DNA of 48,906 nucleotides, taken from the NCBI GenBank assembly GCA_017446745.1, contig JAFSQF010000082.1:1-48906 (forward strand). The letters run 5' to 3'. Both the position numbers and the translations under genes were made by a program. Each line of letters opens with the position of its first letter. The first letter of the stretch is position 1. Source of the DNA: Bacteroidales bacterium (GTDB lineage: Bacteria; Bacteroidota; Bacteroidia; Bacteroidales; P3). The notes under the pieces are model-generated. The model ran no database searches. It was not told where the DNA came from and saw nothing but the letters and a program-made list of their open reading frames with translations. This document shows, piece after piece, positions 11,770 to 22,382 of this stretch.

Positions 11770-12152
11770 GTGGAGGAGACATTCAAGACTCTGAAGCTGG
11801 ATCTCGACATACGCCCGGTCTTCCACAAGTCCGACAAAGGCACCAAAGCTCACCTCCACCTGGCCACGCCTGGCCTACTGGGTTGTGTCCGTCACCAAAT
11901 ATATGCTGAAAAAGAAAGGCATAATCCTGCGTTGGTCGGAGCTGCTGCGCATCATGAGCGCGCAGCAGAGCGTCACCATAGTGGCGCAGCAGACAGGGCG
12001 GACGACAACTCAGGGTGCGGCGCTGCACAGCTCCGGAGGAGAAGCTCGAGGCCATCCAGAATGCCCTCGGCATCCCTGCCAAACCTACCTGCTCAATAAA
12101 ATTTGTGTGGTCCCAGAAATTACCATCCGCAGAAGAACCCAACTCTAAAACA
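11770..12152 (+). pseudogene. IS1634-type transposase remnant, C-terminal part, two frameshifts
   Basis: Three frames read in turn give the C-terminus of a DDE transposase of the IS1634-like group. First comes FKTLKLDLDIRPVFHKSD...KAHLHLA. A shift near 11866 leads to LAYWVVSVTKYMLKKKGI...WSELLRIMSAQQ. A second shift near 12010 leads to RRCTAPEEKLEAIQNALGI and ...IKFVWSQK. The N-terminal two thirds and any terminal repeat are missing, so the element is dead. Its end runs straight into the truncated hsdS gene on the other strand (junction about 12120-12175), which suggests that insertion or deletion linked to this element cut hsdS. Family assignment is from memory of the motif order. Confidence 0.75.
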
Positions 12153-12405
12153 GCCACTTAGCACCCATCAGGCTGCAATGTGGGTTAACTGCTTGTTGTG
12201 TTATATGCTGTATGGAATCGGCCAATATATTTCCGTCCTGTCGGATGTCTTCCATTCGGAACCAGGGAATAGTTTCGCCGTTCCAAAATTCCGTATTTGA
12301 CTTTGGGGGTGTGTAGCCATTCCTTATTTCAAATATTTCACCCAATGGTTTATACTCCACCCCGTCCGGGCAATATTGCTGTATCAGTTTCTCTATCTTT
12401 CCCAT
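12145..12405 (-). pseudogene. hsdS: Type I restriction specificity subunit, N-terminal fragment
   Basis: HsdS gives type I restriction-modification its DNA sequence specificity. The 86 residues match the start of a target recognition domain: IEKLIQQYCPDGVEYKPLGEI, then NGYTPPKSN..FWNGETIPWFRMEDI and HITQQAVN. A full HsdS is about 400 residues, so roughly one fifth is left. Homology stops about 12170, where the transposase remnant begins. I chose the ATG at 12405 because an AGGAGG sits 9 bases upstream at 12415-12420, inside the end of fic; a longer in-frame start at 12426 would overlap fic. With one broken target domain and no hsdR nearby, the protein cannot be a working specificity subunit. 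Confidence 0.85.
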
Positions 12406-12409
12406 ACCG

Positions 12410-13276
12410 TCAGTCCTCCTGTTCATAGTAATATGAATAATCTATGCCTTTCATAAATATCTCCCTGCTGTTTATGTCGTCTGTCAGTGCGCCTTGCAGC
12501 AATGCCTTGATTGAAGTTGCGTCGGTGGTGCTTCTTTTCATTGCCGAAAGGTACTGTTTCTTGTCTATCCGGCTCCAATCAACACATTTCTTCAGCCGCT
12601 GCTTGAATATCATATCGAGCCAGATGCGTGTACTCCTTCCGTTGCCCTCCATAAAGGGGTGCGCCACATTCATCTCGACGTATTTGTCGACAATCTCGTC
12701 GAAGGTGGTTTCCGGCATACTCTCTATCTTCTGAAGATTCTCCTGCAGATACTCGGCTCGGCAGAACAGCGTGCCGTCTTTCCAAATGGTCTTTTGTCGT
12801 ATCTGTCCGGCAAAGTCATACAATCCACCAAAGAGGTAGGCGTGAATCTGTTGCAACGATTTCACCTTTCCTACATCCTTGACAGAAACAATGTTGCTCT
12901 CCCACAAGGTATAGGCCTTTTTGCGGCTGCGTCCGTCGATACTGTTATCGCTGTAGGTGAACCAATCAAGGAAGTTGACTGTATTTTTTGCCGGGAGGGT
13001 CTTTACCACTTCTTCGACATCCTCTTGTGCAAAGCAGTCCGTAGCGTAGCGTTTGCCGTCGGCTGCAAGTAGTTTCAGTTGTATACATTTTGAATACAAC
13101 TGACCATAGTCTGCTTTCTGTCTGTTCTTTACAGTGCCCCAGTATACACGAGGACGTGGACTCTCGGTAATGGCTGCCACTATATCGACAATGGAAAAAT
13201 ACCACTTGTTTTCTTCGTCGTTCCAGATAGCCCGAACTTCGTGGTCTTTGTAAAACCGGAAGGATATCTTGCCCAT
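12410..13276 (-). CDS. fic: Fic-domain protein with N-terminal Bro-N-like domain
   Basis: A 288-residue Fic protein; Fic enzymes usually transfer AMP from ATP to hydroxyl side chains of target proteins. Residues 5-95 resemble a Bro-N/KilA-type domain (DHEVRAIWNDEENKWYFSIVD). Residues 120-270 form the Fic core with IHAYLFGGLYDFAGQIR and the complete active motif HPFMEGNGR (206-214). Near the C-terminus SYYYEQ (281-286) resembles the class III inhibitory helix [S/T]xxxE[G/N], with Gln in the last position. The gene starts one base after the hsdM stop and ends just upstream of the hsdS start, a position where Fic genes are often found in type I restriction loci. Unlike its neighbours it shows no damage. 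Confidence 0.9.
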   Translation of the reverse strand: MGKISFRFYKDHEVRAIWNDEENKWYFSIVDIVAAITESPRPRVYWGTVKNRQKADYGQLYSKCIQLKLLAADGKRYATDCFAQEDVEEVVKTLPAKNTVNFLDWFTYSDNSIDGRSRKKAYTLWESNIVSVKDVGKVKSLQQIHAYLFGGLYDFAGQIRQKTIWKDGTLFCRAEYLQENLQKIESMPETTFDEIVDKYVEMNVAHPFMEGNGRSTRIWLDMIFKQRLKKCVDWSRIDKKQYLSAMKRSTTDATSIKALLQGALTDDINSREIFMKGIDYSYYYEQED

Positions 13277-13277
13277 A

Positions 13278-13784
13278 CTACAGCTCCTTTATAATTTCGT
13301 TAATCTGTGCCCTCAACTCGCTCTCGTGTGCCACTATCTGCTCAATCCGTGCATTTAGCTCCGCGATATCCACCTTCTCGCGTGTGTCCTCCTGCTCCAC
13401 GTAGGTGGATACCGACAGGTTGTAGTCGCCTCCCGCTATGCATTTGATGCTGTATGGAGGATTGCTGACGATGACCTCGAAGGGTTCGTCGTCCCAGTGC
13501 TGCGGCGATATAAGGGTGTCCTCACAGGCTATGTCGAACTTGTCGTAGTCGATGTCGTGCAGGAACATATTGATACGACACAGGTTGTAGGTCGTCAAGT
13601 TGATTTCCTGTCCTAAGAACCCCTGGCGGACATTCTCCTTGCCCAGTATCTTCGCTGACTTCAACAACAGCGAACCGCTGCCACAGGCCGGGTCATACAC
13701 CTTATTGACTTCGCTCTTGCCGAGTGTCGCCAGTCGGGTGAGCAGCTCGGACACCTGTTCTTGCTCTTTCTTGTTATCTGTCAT
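13278..13784 (-). pseudogene. hsdM: Type I DNA methyltransferase subunit with two in-frame internal deletions
   Basis: HsdM methylates adenine in type I restriction-modification. This 168-residue product keeps motif I DPACGSG (31-37), motif IV NPPY (108-111) and the family's C-terminal end (DYNLSVSTYVEQEDTREKVD). A full HsdM is about 500 residues. Comparison with the family as I know it suggests one missing block after residue 9 (MTDNKKEQE then QVSELLTRL, about 200 residues, the helical N-domain) and another after residue 114 (NPPYSIK then IAGGDYNLS, about 190 residues). Both joins keep the frame. The start at 13784 matches the usual HsdM N-terminus. It overlaps nothing and is one base from fic. 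Methylation activity is doubtful. Confidence 0.85.
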
Positions 13785-13933
13785 CGTTATAACTATCTTA
13801 TGTTTCCATTTGACCCCGTCTTGCAATTCGATAGGTGCCACGTATTATGAATGTTATAACGTAAAAACGTGATTGTTATTGCCCTGTTCTGCCAAAAAAA
13901 AAGACTCAATCGGGTATTCCGATGGGGCCTTTG

Positions 13934-15021: not shown

Positions 15022-15726
15022 TTATATTAGATATTCTTGCCATAGATTTTTATGGGTTTCCCAAAATCTCTCTGGTGAAAATCCTGTGGGACGGTATGTT
15101 GTGTCTGTTATCCTAATATCACTCAGCAAATACAACGGCCAAATCGTCTCCAAACGATAGCTCGTATGTCCCAAAACGTACCAGACATAATCTTTCATTA
15201 CCAATCCTCTTGGTTCAAATAGTTCCTGATGATAAGGAAAACCAGTTCTTGGATGATGGTAGTATAAATCAACACACTTTTGCTGACGGATGGCATCCAT
15301 CAGAATATTCACATTCTCTACCCCTGTGGCTTTGCAGTCGATGTGCATATACTTTTTGTTTTCTTCCGAATCCTGCAGATGCTTCATTGCCGCTGATGTT
15401 TCAAATGCCATTAGAAACGGCATTGTCCAAGGGTTGTTGTTGCTCCGTGGCTCTTCCACTAGTCGATAGCGATACCTTCGGTTCTCTTCCGACAATGCTT
15501 TCTTCCCTACCTCGTGTTGAAGGCGGTTGACACATTCTATTTTGATACCAAACCTGTCTCGGAGTTCTTTCAAATAGTTGTGAAATGTCCTCTTGGGCAT
15601 AATCTTCTCCATATTCGGTTCATCGACAAGTCTGTCTATCAACTGGTCGAATGTGATTCCTGTCTCTCCAGCTCTACGAAACTGGGCAACCAGCCAAGAA
15701 AGCATCTCCAAATTTTTGTAGTCCAT
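15022..15726 (-). CDS. WYL-domain transcriptional regulator
   Basis: About 234 residues. The N-terminal part (MDYKNLEMLSWLVAQFRRAGETGITFDQLIDRL...PKRTFHNYLKELRDRFGI) reads as a winged helix. The C-terminal part carries a WYL core (about 150-225): CVDLYYHHPRTG, then YHQELFEPRGLVMKDYVWYVLGH, ending in RFWETHKNLW. WYL proteins often control defence loci (BrxR and CapW are known examples) by sensing a small ligand. I used the ATG at 15726 because a -7 element lies just upstream and the family usually starts there. The gene is divergent from the gene at 15917, with 190 bp between them, a layout that fits local control. Confidence 0.85.
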   Translation of the reverse strand: MDYKNLEMLSWLVAQFRRAGETGITFDQLIDRLVDEPNMEKIMPKRTFHNYLKELRDRFGIKIECVNRLQHEVGKKALSEENRRYRYRLVEEPRSNNNPWTMPFLMAFETSAAMKHLQDSEENKKYMHIDCKATGVENVNILMDAIRQQKCVDLYYHHPRTGFPYHQELFEPRGLVMKDYVWYVLGHTSYRLETIWPLYLLSDIRITDTTYRPTGFSPERFWETHKNLWQEYLI

Positions 15727-15746
15727 CTGATGTATTGTTTCTCGGT

Positions 15747-15755
15747 GCAAAGGTA
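15747..15755 (-). promoter_or_regulatory. -7 promoter element for the WYL regulator
   Basis: The minus strand reads TACCTTTGC, 20 bases upstream of the ATG at 15726. The close spacing supports the shorter start. A matching element for the divergent gene at 15917 is not evident. Confidence 0.6.
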
Positions 15756-15916
15756 CGAAAAACAATCCGTATGTAAAATAAATGTCATGCAAAAGTTAAT
15801 ATATCTGTGCGGAATTTTTACTCAAAACACTAACTGATAACTAATTGCATTTTTGATAAAAAGTTCTTGTTGGAAGTCATTCGTATTATTTAAGCAGATA
15901 GTAATTGCAACACGGT

Positions 15917-16447
15917 ATGAAAACGACAAAGGAAAACACCCAGAAGAAGAGCCTCGGCGAGGCCATCGCCAACGCCGCCAATGCGTGCAAAGTTATCTGC
16001 GCCATCAATGCCCGCTTCGCCCAGAATGGCCTCCCCATGCTCGTGATGAGCGACACCCACGGTATGACGGGAGAGAAAGGCAACCGCACCCTCTGTATCG
16101 ACAGCGACGACCTGGCTCTCCTCAACGCCATCAGTATGCGCGAGGCATTGCAAATCGCTGACCTGGCTATCAAAATCAAGCAGCGCGGCAACAATCCCTA
16201 CCCTCCTATCAATGTAATTCTCAGCGGCGACACCCGCAGGGGAATGTATTGGGCGAATCTGCTGGATGAGTTGCTGGGCCTCCACCTCAAAAGCCTGCCG
16301 TTCTCCTCGCTCTACAGCGGCAAGCACTATGATGGCAAGGGTCTCTTCATCATCGCCTCCGACCTGCCGGTGGCCGAGCTGAAAAGGGGCTTCCCGAAAC
16401 TGTACTCTGATGTCATACTCCTGGAGGAAACACCTTCGGGAGTATGA
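15917..16447 (+). CDS. Unknown protein, first gene of the nuclease-like set
   Basis: I do not recognise this 176-residue protein. It is soluble, with no signal or membrane segment. It starts with a lysine-rich MKTTKENTQKK, then an alanine-rich helix (LGEAIANAANACKVICAINARFAQN), a segment MLVMSDTHGMTGEKGNRTLCID and later NVILSGDTRRGMYW. The SDTHG resembles the first metal site of a calcineurin-like phosphoesterase, but the GNHD and histidine motifs are absent, so I do not call it one. GC content and codon use are those of the core genome, unlike the AT-richer genes that follow. Its stop overlaps an in-frame ATG of the next reading frame (ATGA at 16444). Confidence 0.6.
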   Translation: MKTTKENTQKKSLGEAIANAANACKVICAINARFAQNGLPMLVMSDTHGMTGEKGNRTLCIDSDDLALLNAISMREALQIADLAIKIKQRGNNPYPPINVILSGDTRRGMYWANLLDELLGLHLKSLPFSSLYSGKHYDGKGLFIIASDLPVAELKRGFPKLYSDVILLEETPSGV

Positions 16448-16497
16448 CTTCTCTAATTACAAACAATTATTTGTACAACAATCAAATAAGCACTAAA

Positions 16498-16833
16498 ATG
16501 AAATTATTTACAACACCCAATACGACAACCCTTGAAGATGGGTCAATCAAAGTCAATGTTCAGGCCATCACTCCCGAATACATCGAAAACCACATTAAAA
16601 ATATCGAAGCCGTTGAAAAATTGGACATTAACGAAGTTATCAGTATTATCCGTGGAAGCAATAATCTTGATGAGGCAAACAACTCACTTGTATCACGTTT
16701 TAATATCACGCACCAAATAGCTGATTTTATTCTAAATATGGAATTTGCAGAGGTGAGTGAGTATGTGGGGAACGAGGTGTTCTGTGAGGCAGAAATCGAG
16801 AGATGGAATGCACTGCGAGAAATTATACAGTAG
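16498..16833 (+). CDS. Small unknown protein with a GyrA tower-like segment
   Basis: About 111 residues from MKLFTTPNTTT. The run DEANNSLVSRFNITHQIADFILNM is reminiscent of the topoisomerase IIA coiled-coil/tower segment that usually reads eARxxLmxrFgLseiQAxaILdM, but no catalytic tyrosine domain or ATPase is present. This likeness is from memory and weak. An upstream ATG at 16444 overlaps the previous stop and would add 18 residues; I prefer 16498 because the added part is AT-rich and unlike protein. It may be linked by translation coupling to the gene before it. A new promoter for the next gene lies 30 bases after its stop. Confidence 0.55.
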   Translation: MKLFTTPNTTTLEDGSIKVNVQAITPEYIENHIKNIEAVEKLDINEVISIIRGSNNLDEANNSLVSRFNITHQIADFILNMEFAEVSEYVGNEVFCEAEIERWNALREIIQ

Positions 16834-16862
16834 AAATATTTAGCTGATTGAGAATAAATTCG

Positions 16863-16871
16863 TATCTTTGC
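16863..16871 (+). promoter_or_regulatory. -7 promoter element for the nuclease-like gene
   Basis: TATCTTTGC matches TAnnTTTG and lies 78 bases before the start at 16949. It could drive the three overlapping genes 16949-19768 as one transcript. Confidence 0.6.
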
Positions 16872-16948
16872 ACCTTGAAATTTAAGTCATTCAGTAGGAT
16901 AAAGGGGCTACCTGAATGAATATTATTTGAACAGCTCCCACAATAACA

Positions 16949-17908
16949 ATGACAATGAAACTGAGCAAAAGACAAATTTCTGATACCTTATTAAGTATGC
17001 TTGATAAGGGAGGCATTTATTATGAAATCACGGAAATAGTAAAAACCGACCCTTATCTCGACATGGAGATGCGAGGAAATACCGGAGTCATTGTCTATTA
17101 CCGAGGTGGAAAAATTTTAACCATTGATGAAAAGAAAGGATTACTGGGATTAGATAAAGAATACTATCGTGGAACTACAATAGAGACTATACTTCCGAGC
17201 ACCAACAGTATTTTTGATTATATCTGTAAGGCCAAACACATCATGGATATATACGAGTGTAATGTCAAGAGTAAATTGGGAGAAAAAGAGATTCAGCAAA
17301 GAGTGGTTTATGAGAACAACTTATCTGTAAACGCCGATAATACTGATTACTTTATTGCAGATATTGAATGGGCTGATAATAATCTTTTAGGTGGACGGGC
17401 TGATATTGTTGCTTTTCGGTGGAATCACATGGAACACAGAAAGAGGGTATTACAACTAACCATAATAGAGGTAAAACAGGGTGAAAAGGCAATAAAAACC
17501 AAAGAGAAAGGGAATCCTGGTCTAAAGAAACATTATGAAGATTACCAGGCGTTTAAGAGCGACAAGGAATACGCTAAATCCTTTGCAGATGATATGCTTG
17601 CCGTTCTTCGCCAAAAGCATAAACTTGGACTAATAAAAGGGTTAGACATGTTATTCACTAATGGAAAGAAAGACTTCACCCCAAAGATTGAAGAAAAAAT
17701 AGATTTTGTTTTTCTGCTCGCAAATTATCATCATTATAGTGATGAGTTGAAAGAGGAATATGAGTCATTACCCGATGAATGTAGATTCTATGTATCTTCG
17801 TTTATGGGCTATGGATTATATAAAGACTTTATATTCAATAAGAACGAGATACGGAATTTATTTCCTGTAGTTTTTAACCATGACCATTACCATTCATCGC
17901 GGAATTAA
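16949..17908 (+). CDS. PD-(D/E)XK nuclease-like protein
   Basis: A 319-residue soluble protein of no named family. Residues 134-177 show the signature of a restriction-endonuclease-like fold: YFIADIEWADNNLLGGRADIVAF, with Asp152, then LTIIEVKQGEK with Glu174-x-Lys176. That spacing is typical of the PD-(D/E)XK active site. The N-terminal third (about 1-110) is an unknown mixed domain with MRGNTGVIVYYRGGKILTID; the C-terminal third is charged and helical. The gene is AT-richer than the core genome, which suggests transfer. The last 29 bases overlap the start of the metallo-beta-lactamase gene. A second ATG two codons in is an alternative start. The fold is a fair inference; the substrate is unknown. 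Confidence 0.7.
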   Translation: MTMKLSKRQISDTLLSMLDKGGIYYEITEIVKTDPYLDMEMRGNTGVIVYYRGGKILTIDEKKGLLGLDKEYYRGTTIETILPSTNSIFDYICKAKHIMDIYECNVKSKLGEKEIQQRVVYENNLSVNADNTDYFIADIEWADNNLLGGRADIVAFRWNHMEHRKRVLQLTIIEVKQGEKAIKTKEKGNPGLKKHYEDYQAFKSDKEYAKSFADDMLAVLRQKHKLGLIKGLDMLFTNGKKDFTPKIEEKIDFVFLLANYHHYSDELKEEYESLPDECRFYVSSFMGYGLYKDFIFNKNEIRNLFPVVFNHDHYHSSRN

Positions 17909-19166
17909 CCAGATTGGCGGGTGCATCACAGAGATTGCCTCCGCCAATGGTTCTAAGATACTTATCGACCTCGGCCACAATCTGCCAGAGGGAGATAACC
18001 ATAACAACGACCCGCTGGAGAAGGCCGAGAACATCGACCCTATCCTTGATGGTGTGGATGCCGTATTCTACACCCATTCCCACGGCGACCACGTTGGATT
18101 TGAGGCTTACGTGGCGAGCAAGAACATTCCGCAGTATATTGGAAAACTATCCAAAAGACTAATGTTGCTGCTGCGCGGCAACATTCTCTACTACCATCCA
18201 ACTCCCGAATTGAGAGCCAGTAAAAAAGCTATCGAGAATTTCAGCACATACGAGGCTGCAAAACCAGTGAAGGTCGGTGATATTATAGTTACACCGTACT
18301 ATGTCAGCCACTCTTCCCCTGATGCCTATATGTTTGTGGTTGAATGCGACGGCCATGCGGTTCTGCACACGGGCGACTTTCGTGACCACGGCTATCGTGG
18401 CAAGGGGTTGGAACCTACCATTCAAAAGTACATAGTTCCCCGCCATATCGATGTGCTTATCACAGAAGGCACCATGCTTGGCCGCGATGATGGACGTATG
18501 ATTTCGGAGGTGCAACTGTGCGAGCAGGCCACCGAACTGATGCGTAAATATAAATATGTCTTCTTTATGTGTTCCACGCAGGATGCCGACCGCATATCTT
18601 CCATCAATCAAGCCACGGACATCGTAAGAGGACGGCGGATGCTTGTGGATGGATACCAGTATAAGGTGCTTGAGGCTTTTGAAGAGGAACTGGGGCAAGG
18701 GAAATATTTCCGTTACCAGTATAACCGCAAGTGCTATTACCGCAAACATTGGGATTACGTGCTTGACAAGGACTGCAAGAGAGGTTTCACCATGCTTGTA
18801 AGAAACAACCGCAATATGAGAAAGAGCCTCGACGAGATGATGCCTTTGCTGGACAAAGAACAATGCTGCTTGGTATATTCACAATTCAAAGGTTATATCG
18901 ACCCCAAGCACTCGGCTTTTATGCAGAGTACCTACGACTTTATCCACACATACGACTGGCATTTCGAGTATCTTCACACTTCTGGTCACGCTTCGCGTGA
19001 GACACTGGAGATGGTGTGCAAAAAGGTGAATCCCCAACTGGCCATTATCCCTATTCACCGTGAAGCACAAAGTGACTTTCGAGAACTCAACTTGTCAGAG
19101 GAACTGAAAAGCAAGGTGATTACAAAAAGCACATCAATTGAGGATGTGAAAATCGTCATTAAATGA
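17880..19166 (+). CDS. RNase J-like metallo-beta-lactamase fold hydrolase
   Basis: A 428-residue metal-dependent hydrolase related to the RNase J/beta-CASP group, which cut or trim RNA (some cut DNA). Metal motifs: HSHGDH (66-71), VSHSSPDA, HTGDFRDHG, and in the C-terminal part HTSGHAS and IPIHRE, the last two as in RNase J. ITEGTMLGRDDGR matches the usual beta-CASP boundary. It is shorter than housekeeping RNase J (about 550 residues) and appears to lack the extra C-terminal domain. Its start overlaps the nuclease-like gene by 29 bases, and its stop overlaps the next gene's start as ATGA. An accessory nuclease rather than the cell's main RNase J is my inference. Confidence 0.82.
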   Translation: MTITIHRGINQIGGCITEIASANGSKILIDLGHNLPEGDNHNNDPLEKAENIDPILDGVDAVFYTHSHGDHVGFEAYVASKNIPQYIGKLSKRLMLLLRGNILYYHPTPELRASKKAIENFSTYEAAKPVKVGDIIVTPYYVSHSSPDAYMFVVECDGHAVLHTGDFRDHGYRGKGLEPTIQKYIVPRHIDVLITEGTMLGRDDGRMISEVQLCEQATELMRKYKYVFFMCSTQDADRISSINQATDIVRGRRMLVDGYQYKVLEAFEEELGQGKYFRYQYNRKCYYRKHWDYVLDKDCKRGFTMLVRNNRNMRKSLDEMMPLLDKEQCCLVYSQFKGYIDPKHSAFMQSTYDFIHTYDWHFEYLHTSGHASRETLEMVCKKVNPQLAIIPIHREAQSDFRELNLSEELKSKVITKSTSIEDVKIVIK

Positions 19167-19768
19167 AGATTCTCCACCTCTCCGACACACACGGCAAACA
19201 TAGAGAACTCACTGATATGCCATCCGCTGACATACTGGTGCATAGTGGCGATTTTACACTATCCGGCGGTGATATGGAGGCCCTTGATTTCATTGAATGG
19301 CTCTGTGATTTACCCTATAAACACAAATTATTCATCGCCGGCAACCACGACGACTGTATGTTGGACGCCTCATTGGAGGGCCTGCCTGATGACGTGCATT
19401 ATCTTTCCGATAGGAGTATCACTATTGACGGAATATCATTCTATGGAGCTCCGATGTTTGCTGTATTCGATGGCGAGGAATTGAAAGAGGTAGAACACTA
19501 CGAACAAATACCAGACAACACTGATATTTTAATAACCCATCGTCCTCCGCTTGGCATTTTGGATAGCATCGACGACCGCATACACTATGGCAGTTCCATC
19601 CTACTGGACAAGGTTTCCAATATAAAGCCAAGAATTCACCTTTTTGGACACGTTCATTCTGCTTACGGAACAATTGGTTGGAAAGGGATAACTTTCTGTA
19701 ATGCTGGTCTTACTGATTGGAAATATGACATCCAATATTCTCCTCAATTATTGGAAATAAATATATAA
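19163..19768 (+). CDS. Calcineurin-like metallophosphoesterase
   Basis: A 201-residue two-metal phosphoesterase with every expected motif: LHLSDTHGKH (Asp8, His10), VHSGDFTLSGG, the bridging GNHDD, ITHRPPLG and LFGHVHSAYG. The size and motif spacing recall the MPPED/YfcE-like small phosphodiesterases, which act on cyclic nucleotides or similar phosphodiesters. It is translationally coupled to the RNase J-like gene (stop and start share ATGA). No signal peptide, so cytosolic. It is the last gene of the set; no clear terminator follows before the convergent gene. Confidence 0.85.
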   Translation: MKILHLSDTHGKHRELTDMPSADILVHSGDFTLSGGDMEALDFIEWLCDLPYKHKLFIAGNHDDCMLDASLEGLPDDVHYLSDRSITIDGISFYGAPMFAVFDGEELKEVEHYEQIPDNTDILITHRPPLGILDSIDDRIHYGSSILLDKVSNIKPRIHLFGHVHSAYGTIGWKGITFCNAGLTDWKYDIQYSPQLLEINI

Positions 19769-20677: not shown

Positions 20678-21622
20678 TTATTTGATGTGTTGTGTCTTCC
20701 AAATAGCCATTGGATGGTTTGCAACACTGTCAGTTATTGATTTGTCGTCAAAAAGCAGTTCGGGTTTATATAGACCTTCATAAAAAAGTCTAATAAACTT
20801 CTCTTCTGTATCGGTAATCGTGAGTAATTCCTTCAGATATGATACCACTTGGTTCTTTATGCTTTCGAGTTCAAAATAAGTTCCTTTTTTGAGAACGGGT
20901 AATAGCGATGCTCTGATTTGCTTGAATTGGAGTCTGCTGATGGAATCCAATGAAAACAGATTCTCTCTTCTTGTGTCACTTCCTAATACAGAGTAGAATA
21001 TAATTCCTTTTCGAAGTGTTGGTTTTTGCTGTTCCTCGATGATATTCTGCTCAATCATATTGTGAACGTCATATAAATCTCTCGCTGCACCCCTTTCAAG
21101 AAGTGCTTTTATCTTGGTGGCATAGAGTTCTACCACATCCAACGTGCGAACTGTGAAATCGCCTAATTGTGGGATAAGAATGGATTTGCGTACAATCGGT
21201 AGTATATGGCAACGCATAGAATAGTTGATTTCTATCTTGATGTTATCATTATTACCTACAGAATTAGTGTATTGATAGACCCACGAATCAATCGATAAAG
21301 GTGATTTGCTGCGTGGGGTCCGTCTATACCCTTCGGAGTTCATGTATGCGTCAAGCCGTTCATTAATCTCTTTTCGTTTTCGCATCATTGCCATCCGCAC
21401 ACAATTATCAGTGAAATCCAGATCGATATCAACAGAAAGTCTCGGCAATGGAGCTATCACCAAGTTGATTGCCGTACCACCTTTTAAGGCGAGATTGTCG
21501 GCAAATAACGAATCAGCATTCAGCTGTCGTAATATACCGCTAAGGCGAACAATCTTCTCCACATTGTCGCGGATGTAATTTGTTTCTTTCGCCAGATTGT
21601 CAATGTCGGTCCTGTTATACAT
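20678..21622 (-). CDS. AbiEii/AbiGii-family nucleotidyltransferase toxin
   Basis: A 314-residue toxin of the type IV AbiE toxin-antitoxin family, known from phage-abortive infection. AbiEii-like proteins are nucleotidyltransferases. The active-site region is present: LKGGTAINL (47-54) then SVDIDLDF with Asp65, Asp67 and Asp69. A later KIKALLERGAARDLYDVHNM matches the family's second conserved block. Its start overlaps the antitoxin gene by 8 bases, so the two are coupled. All motifs are intact, so the pair may work. It lies in the accessory island beside a mobile element. Confidence 0.88.
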   Translation of the reverse strand: MYNRTDIDNLAKETNYIRDNVEKIVRLSGILRQLNADSLFADNLALKGGTAINLVIAPLPRLSVDIDLDFTDNCVRMAMMRKRKEINERLDAYMNSEGYRRTPRSKSPLSIDSWVYQYTNSVGNNDNIKIEINYSMRCHILPIVRKSILIPQLGDFTVRTLDVVELYATKIKALLERGAARDLYDVHNMIEQNIIEEQQKPTLRKGIIFYSVLGSDTRRENLFSLDSISRLQFKQIRASLLPVLKKGTYFELESIKNQVVSYLKELLTITDTEEKFIRLFYEGLYKPELLFDDKSITDSVANHPMAIWKTQHIK

Positions 21623-22382
21623 TTACATATCCTCCTTTCTCTGTCATCATATAGAAAGTGTTTGGTACGCACAGGCCCCACTCGCTTACGTATTTTGTGT
21701 CTGTATTCGTTTCGTCGAGGTATCGTGTGCTTTTCCCTATATTATCCTTGCAAAGTTTGAAGAATGCAGAAGAAAGATGCATCTGTTTTTTGTAATGCGA
21801 TAGAATAAACCCCACCTTTTGGTACAATGCCGGTTTTGAATACAATTCAAGATATGAAACGAGAGCAACTTCATTGACGAATGTGATGGCGTCAAGGTTG
21901 TTTAGCAGTTCTTCCAAGCCGCCGGCATATTTGATTCGGTCTATGCAGTCAAGTATCGTCCGTTCAACATCGGTTACACGGATATGAGAGTTCATCGTTG
22001 GTGTGACAACTCCGAAGTTGTGGTTTGGCTTGCGCCGATTATATGTTATGCCCTCAAAATCGAATGTGCGGAAAACGGTTGCGGTCATCACATCCATCTC
22101 GTTGAATACCTGGTTGCTGAATCCATAATATTCCATTGCAGAATGGTATGCCACACAGGCATCGTTAGCTATGGCCGAGGCAATCTCATATTTGTTGGCT
22201 GCACATAAGCCAGTTGCGAGGTCTGTCACCGAATACAGATTGCTTTTTATTCGGCAAATGGTTTTTTGTTTGACTCCAGCAGATAGCATGGATATGGCAG
22301 TACTTTTATTGCCGGTTATTTTTACTGCATCATCTAAGGAAAACAACCTTATTTCATGTAATTTACCAAGATATTTTGACAT
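21615..22382 (-). CDS. AbiEi-family antitoxin
   Basis: A 255-residue antitoxin and probable autoregulator, first gene of the AbiE pair. The N-terminal part (about 1-60, LFSLDDAVKITGNKSTAISM...VKQKTICRIKSNLYSV) reads as the winged helix of AbiEi proteins. The middle (CVAYHSAMEYYGFSNQVF; RVTDVERTILDCIDR) is the standard AbiEi core. In the family the antitoxin binds its own promoter and blocks toxin action without binding the toxin protein. A -7 element lies 23 bases upstream at 22413-22405. Confidence 0.87.
   Translation of the reverse strand: MSKYLGKLHEIRLFSLDDAVKITGNKSTAISMLSAGVKQKTICRIKSNLYSVTDLATGLCAANKYEIASAIANDACVAYHSAMEYYGFSNQVFNEMDVMTATVFRTFDFEGITYNRRKPNHNFGVVTPTMNSHIRVTDVERTILDCIDRIKYAGGLEELLNNLDAITFVNEVALVSYLELYSKPALYQKVGFILSHYKKQMHLSSAFFKLCKDNIGKSTRYLDETNTDTKYVSEWGLCVPNTFYMMTEKGGYVNV

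Follow-up and report, generated by a model that had tools for sequence, protein, structure and literature searches.

Which of the genes clustered between positions 15,022 and 19,768 of a Bacteroidales contig belong together, and what could they do? The window, by which we mean the whole stretch of DNA analysed, is contig JAFSQF010000082.1 of assembly GCA_017446745.1 (48,906 nucleotides). At this locus a WYL regulator gene lies divergently from two small open reading frames (ORFs), orfA and orfB, and from three overlapping genes, which encode a PD-(D/E)XK-type protein (NUC), a beta-CASP metallo-beta-lactamase (MBL) and a calcineurin-like phosphoesterase (MPE). The overlaps are 29 bases for NUC/MBL and 4 bases for MBL/MPE. 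The ORF coordinates place all six genes where a first-pass annotation of the sequence had put them. That annotation took the three overlapping genes as a set. Because the trio is rare in other genomes and the NUC-MBL pair is regular, the unit is rather MBL, which stays constant, together with an adjoining PD-(D/E)XK nuclease gene, which is swapped and varies in family. We lean, with slightly better than even confidence, towards the view that this unit is a mobile, sporadic, WYL-regulated and usually silent nuclease defence module, with phages or plasmids as its likely targets.

The surveys covered genomes (393 from the order and 395 from the phylum), plasmid records, viral contigs and phage records, and the loci were labelled L###. 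With MBL alone as the query, matches were found in 30 of the 393 order genomes and 5 of the 395 phylum genomes. The plasmid records gave 14 matches, the viral contigs 6 (one of them a fragment) and the phage records 5. Nine plasmid loci were used (H1–H5 and H7–H10). H6 duplicates H5 in organism, size and place, and the excluded matches were H11 (L014, 24.7% identical, amid ABC-transporter genes) and H12–H14; the fragment L054 was not counted. When NUC was searched in the 395 phylum genomes, three matches were obtained (the window and two others), and a scan of named genomes added four further NUC loci. All six NUC loci outside the window have MBL nearby.

The first survey, made with an iterated NUC profile, gave 28 NUCs, and all 28 are on the MBL strand. 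MBL is the immediate neighbour of 26 of them and is separated by one gene from the other two. The two genes overlap or lie at most 35 bases apart in 25 cases, with an exact 4-base overlap in 10. Among the 44 loci found through MBL, 25 contain NUC. Four of the 44, proteobacterial plasmid loci outside the profile building, served as an independent test, and NUC was found directly before MBL in three of them (E 8e-19 to 6e-29). The reverse search with the NUC profile in the 393 order genomes found NUC in 28, together with MBL in 19. Of the remaining nine, five have no MBL in the stretch around NUC, in two the stretch breaks off right behind NUC, and the last two gave a weak match that is probably unrelated. 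Nine of the 44 MBL-found loci have no recognised partner (L011, L052, L060, L071, L073, L077 and L148, plus L081 and L084 at contig ends). NUC-MBL is a recurrent and real pair, although not an obligatory one.

It is hardly credible that these genes are merely chance neighbours within an island, and for NUC-MBL this explanation is already refuted. MPE and WYL occur in a minority of loci, as chance neighbours might, but NUC stands beside MBL in both search directions and on proteobacterial plasmids, often with 4-base overlaps, and the profiles of NUC, MBL, WYL and MPE gave no match in 15 control windows taken from the same genomes. One NUC without MBL, in L114 (6470–10988), is accompanied by a REase-ARP-like gene with 40% identity to its L066 counterpart and lies between genes reading like hsdM and hsdS.

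NUC is missing from 19 of the MBL-found loci. MBL has a different PD-(D/E)XK-like neighbour in ten of them, and one of these partners is REase-ARP (Pfam 3e-50). The partner family c15 (L055, L067 and L076) reached 88.8% probability against the NUC profile. The families c28 and c36 reached 5.7 and 7.3%, with the alignment confined to the active-site region, and REase-ARP 0.4%. Pfam gave no match for the partners of L009, L049, L053, L055 and L056. Because of these profile comparisons and the empty Pfam scan, c15 may be a remote NUC, and six of the non-NUC partners (L009, L049, L053, L056, L070 and L083) are called PD-(D/E)XK-like by motifs read by eye.

The MBLs of L067 and L068 are 83% identical, and their partners belong to different clusters (the L067 family is c15). 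The case for a swap is cleaner within NUC than for these two loci, where the L067 partner may be a remote NUC. Between L065 and L068, MBL is 78% and NUC 31% identical. Between L058 and L068 the values are 41% for MBL and 63% for NUC, and between the window and L008 they are 39 and 62%. Partner type is scattered over the MBL tree, where its labels required 16 changes versus a shuffled mean of 17.4, a number as low being reached in 20 of 200 shuffles. The NUC label required 14 changes (at least 11 by the starred branches) versus a shuffled mean of 14.4; this tree labels L012 as partnerless although NUC occurs there.

The constant protein, MBL, has all the beta-CASP features, namely HxHxDH, the distal His and Asp, and motifs A, B and C. 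H66, H68, H144, D166, E196, S334, H366, S368, H370 and H393 are kept in all 45 aligned copies, and D70 and H71 in 44 each; the cut MBLs of L081 and L082 are excluded from this alignment. The earlier description of an RNase J-like protein with full metal motifs thus holds. The sole MBL with a broken HxHxDH is that of L060 (7993–9300), which reads HFHPEL, has no recognised partner and is likely a decaying orphan. Among solved structures, the MBL profile matched EF2904 best (2az4, 3e-36, compared by profile alone), followed by RNase J (1.3e-30) and Cas14 (7.5e-17). A His in motif C is the RNA-type residue of beta-CASP enzymes, and motif C of MBL is a His.

MBL shares the fold, the beta-CASP motif residues and the RMMBL region with RNase J and other beta-CASP ribonucleases. 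It differs from RNase J in being mostly about 400–440 amino acids long, sporadic and adjacent to a nuclease gene. The match to the NCBIfam RNase J family (1.5e-15) falls into two pieces and scores 56.7 bits, far below the cut-off of 400, and RNase J proper was therefore rejected. Type VII CRISPR-Cas likewise has a beta-CASP nuclease, Cas14, in a defence setting (PMC10910872). This candidate was also rejected: MBL scores 27.2 bits with the Cas14 model, whose cut-off is 800, and none of the ten scanned window proteins matched cas5 or cas7.

In NUC, the putative active-site residues D152, E174 and K176 proposed by the first-pass annotation are unchanged in all 28 aligned copies. E112 and D138 are also invariant, and E140 is kept in 27. 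The predicted structure of NUC has a restriction-endonuclease-like core and matches mainly restriction-type nucleases with modest Z, which supports the suggested nuclease-like, PD-(D/E)XK fold with moderate confidence. The PDB entries matched include what we take to be restriction enzymes, Shedu SduA, HamA and NucS. At the sequence level, the window NUC has no Pfam match over the cut-off. When the 28 NUCs were compared with curated families, six families were matched by one member each, weakly (E 0.0009–0.0093). PDDEXK_9 among them is of the PD-(D/E)XK kind, and DUF234, NucS_C and HSDR_N_2 are presumably so. The NUC profile matched no PDB chain at E up to 1; NUC had no match in PHROGs or, as a sequence, in plasmid records at E 0.01, and no confirmed relative in the viral contigs.

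These structural matches bear on a different reading, that of methylase-free (type IV-like) restriction, in which the PD-(D/E)XK proteins would read differing phage DNA modifications and MBL would resect the cut DNA. It is a possible explanation, though not the one that we prefer. The restriction-type matches of NUC would suit it, as would the REase-ARP partner and the lone NUC of L114 amid what we read as hsdM- and hsdS-like genes. However, the motif-C His of MBL is of the RNA type, and the Pfam scan recognised no modified-base reader domain in NUC.

The tight linkage of two genes, one of which is swapped, could also be that of a toxin-antitoxin-like addiction or abortive-infection unit. In such a unit, WYL repression and the partner protein would curb a PD-(D/E)XK or beta-CASP toxin, and the difficulty of losing the set would explain its persistence. 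We regard this as doubtful. Its relatives are carried on plasmids, and the window set adjoins AbiE, a toxin-antitoxin-type system, as might be expected of such a unit. However, since NUC and MBL both retain full catalytic motifs, neither looks like a plain antitoxin. The five NUCs without MBL and the nine MBL loci for which no partner was recognised also argue against such a unit.

MPE and WYL are optional components, since the trio of NUC, MBL and MPE is present in only 7 of the 51 loci (the window, L005, L008, L015, L061, L069 and L147). MPE has the full motifs that had been ascribed to it, a Metallophos domain with D-x-H ... GD ... GNHD. It matches the PADLOC candidate PDC-S10 (2.2e-71) over nearly its full length, and its closest solved relative is MPPED2 (3rl4, 2.7e-30). 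MPEs of this type occur in 9 of the 51 loci and lie directly downstream of MBL in all nine. A motif scan adds MPEs in L147 and in L007 (there on the opposite strand), which gives 11 of 51 versus 0 of 15 controls. In L147 (1–8264, a Cereibacter plasmid), the trio follows the window order, includes an MPE from a different subfamily and lies between a Tn3 transposase gene and TniB/TniQ genes. The WYL protein of the window scored 32.3 bits against the Pfam cut-off of 21.8. WYL genes were found in 14 of the 51 MBL loci versus 0 of 15 controls, and they are divergent also in L005, L011, L077 and the Cupriavidus plasmid locus L149.

The first-pass annotation had proposed a defence or RNA/nucleotide-processing module and would have taken rare adjacency of the three genes as a refutation. 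NUC and MBL are regular neighbours, but the rarity of the full trio weighs in part against the proposal, and the trio as a fixed unit is not upheld. The defence part gains from the WYL counts, and the neighbourhood may point the same way. The 130 module neighbours of 15 loci matched 100 PADLOC families versus 21 for 133 control proteins, where families and not genes are counted. These controls came from windows about 25–58 kb away on the same contigs, and 2 of their 135 proteins were dropped for size.

MPE also suggests end repair, in which MBL, the phosphoesterase and the nuclease would trim damaged RNA or DNA ends. Lhr- or ligase-associated MBL-phosphoesterase sets are the model for this. 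The position of the phosphoesterase directly after MBL and its kinship to MPPED2 would agree with such a role, as would the involvement of WYL regulators in DNA-damage responses, reported in PMC10693628. We nevertheless think this unlikely, because MBL is sporadic (30 of 393), the nuclease is swapped, MPE of this type is missing in 42 of the 51 loci, and the G+C content lies below that of the two flanking genes. The latter have 57% G+C and the whole window 51.6%; WYL, orfB, NUC, MBL and MPE have 35–47%, and orfA 56%.

Turning back to the nuclease defence module, we infer the functions of its parts as follows. From the behaviour of BrxR and CapW, which are WYL regulators of defence operons, the WYL protein, itself next to a suspected defence operon, is probably a repressor of the divergent operon and would release it on a nucleic-acid or nucleotide ligand. 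The PD-(D/E)XK protein would be the exchangeable half that gives specificity, binding and probably cutting foreign nucleic acid. MBL would be the constant executor, degrading exposed RNA or, less likely, DNA; the motif-C His and the relatedness to RNase J and Cas14 suggest this substrate. Where present, MPE, judged from the function of MPPED2, might remove or open terminal or cyclic phosphates after cleavage; that it acts on a nucleotide signal is a guess. To take the exchanged half as the sensor is our judgement, and it could be the effector.

The folds are known, whereas the combination and the partner exchange are new. Shedu SduA, HamA, NucS and Card1 are PD-(D/E)XK nucleases whose partner genes differ from those of NUC. 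PDC-S10, which from its S we take to be a single-gene candidate, corresponds here to an optional third gene. A described NUC-MBL module was not found among the literature matches listed, with subscription papers mostly outside the scope, in line with the first-pass annotation, which knew of no described system with this set. Looked into by term, PMC4012209, PMC12458937, PMC9503650, PMC11090510, PMC10910872 and PMC13092281 do not show it. Nor does PMC9122601, a WYL-family paper in which a term search met neither lactamase nor MBL nor phosphoesterase. If our preferred reading is true, this is an undescribed multi-gene nuclease system in Bacteroidales relatives and Pseudomonadota plasmids, with an unusual design in which the beta-CASP enzyme stays the same and the nuclease gene beside it is swapped between families. 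The split into sensor and executor then becomes testable, with natural partner swaps at hand.

The mobile and sporadic character is seen in the distribution. MBL and NUC are absent from the one same-genus genome and the three same-family genomes listed. Relatives occur on plasmids, including plasmids of Pseudomonadota, and one of them lies between transposition genes.

The two small ORFs before NUC are harder to place. orfA has no Pfam or NCBIfam match. A copy precedes NUC in L005 (7377–7919), and between the window and L005 the proteins are 87% (orfA), 68% (NUC) and 57% (MBL) identical. The orfA differences number 20, 8 and 33 by codon position, a pattern that marks orfA as a real gene. orfB matches NCBIfam gyrA (5e-6). 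With the gyrA model it ranks third in this genome (E 2.8e-5), after GyrA and a ParC-like gene, and in 50 other loci nothing better than E 0.3 was found for it.

Small proteins of cluster c2, found near NUC in four other loci, resemble the palm of the DNA polymerase III (Pol III) alpha subunit and exceed the Pfam cut-off in genome G351. In L015 the c2 gene lies between NUC and MBL, and its residues aligned to the DnaE stretch PDIDVDFDDD lack the acid cluster. Of 134 small neighbours collected, 99 were scanned and 2 matched Pol III models. The G351 Pol III alpha protein also matched more distant ORFs in L009, L050, L067, L006 and L007, versus 0 of 15 controls. These copies of replisome pieces (c2 and orfB) could be bait for phage proteins attacking the replisome, guarded so that capture of the bait frees the constant beta-CASP enzyme and the exchangeable PD-(D/E)XK nucleases. 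The counts behind this idea are small, and we hold it to be very unlikely.

The module genes, the c2 genes and the neighbouring loci are listed in Table 1. As first annotated, the module lies between a broken type I restriction locus and an AbiE pair. The truncated hsdM on the left covers positions 33–138 of the 311-position N6_Mtase model, and the Fic protein beside it matches PADLOC PDC-S04 (3.9e-138), with the NmFic model over its cut-off.

Table 1. Positions of the module genes, their neighbours in the window and the c2 genes of other loci.
Feature	Locus	Position	Strand	Evidence	Remark
WYL gene	window	15022-15792	-	Pfam WYL 1e-7, PADLOC WYL 1.5e-11	divergent from the other module genes
orfA, 180 amino acids	window	15905-16447	+		ATG at 15917 is the more probable start; accessory protein, membership uncertain
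orfB, 129 amino acids	window	16444-16833	+	gyrase A-like stretch at about residues 55-106	membership uncertain
NUC, PD-(D/E)XK-type, 319 amino acids	window	16949-17908	+	invariant residues and predicted core	exchangeable partner
MBL, beta-CASP metallo-beta-lactamase, 428 amino acids	window	17880-19166	+	Pfam Lactamase_B_2 1.1e-9, RMMBL 1.9e-4	constant component
MPE, calcineurin-like phosphoesterase, MPPED2 type, 201 amino acids	window	19163-19768	+	Pfam Metallophos 8.7e-12	optional
Type I restriction remnants	window	12145-13841	-	short hsdM piece, Fic protein, 93-amino-acid ORF reading like an hsdS start	left of module
AbiEi/AbiEii pair	window	20678-22382	-	PADLOC 3.9e-88 and 2.4e-106	right of module
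c2, small Pol III alpha-like protein	L006	7455-7943	+	c2 profile	near NUC
c2, small Pol III alpha-like protein	L007	7461-7940	+	c2 profile	near NUC
c2, small Pol III alpha-like protein	L008	6264-6764	-	c2 profile	near NUC
c2, small Pol III alpha-like protein	L015	9006-9539	-	c2 profile	near NUC

Further genes were seen beside MBL. Small proteins of one type accompany it as cluster c4 in L010, L012, L013 and L071 and, by eye, in L148 and L015; the three tested (L013, L010 and L015) have no Pfam match. L059 and L071 have a gene pair in common, one member of which is read as DUF262-like, and annotated DUF262 proteins lie near MBL in L011 (1–3717, a Prevotella plasmid).

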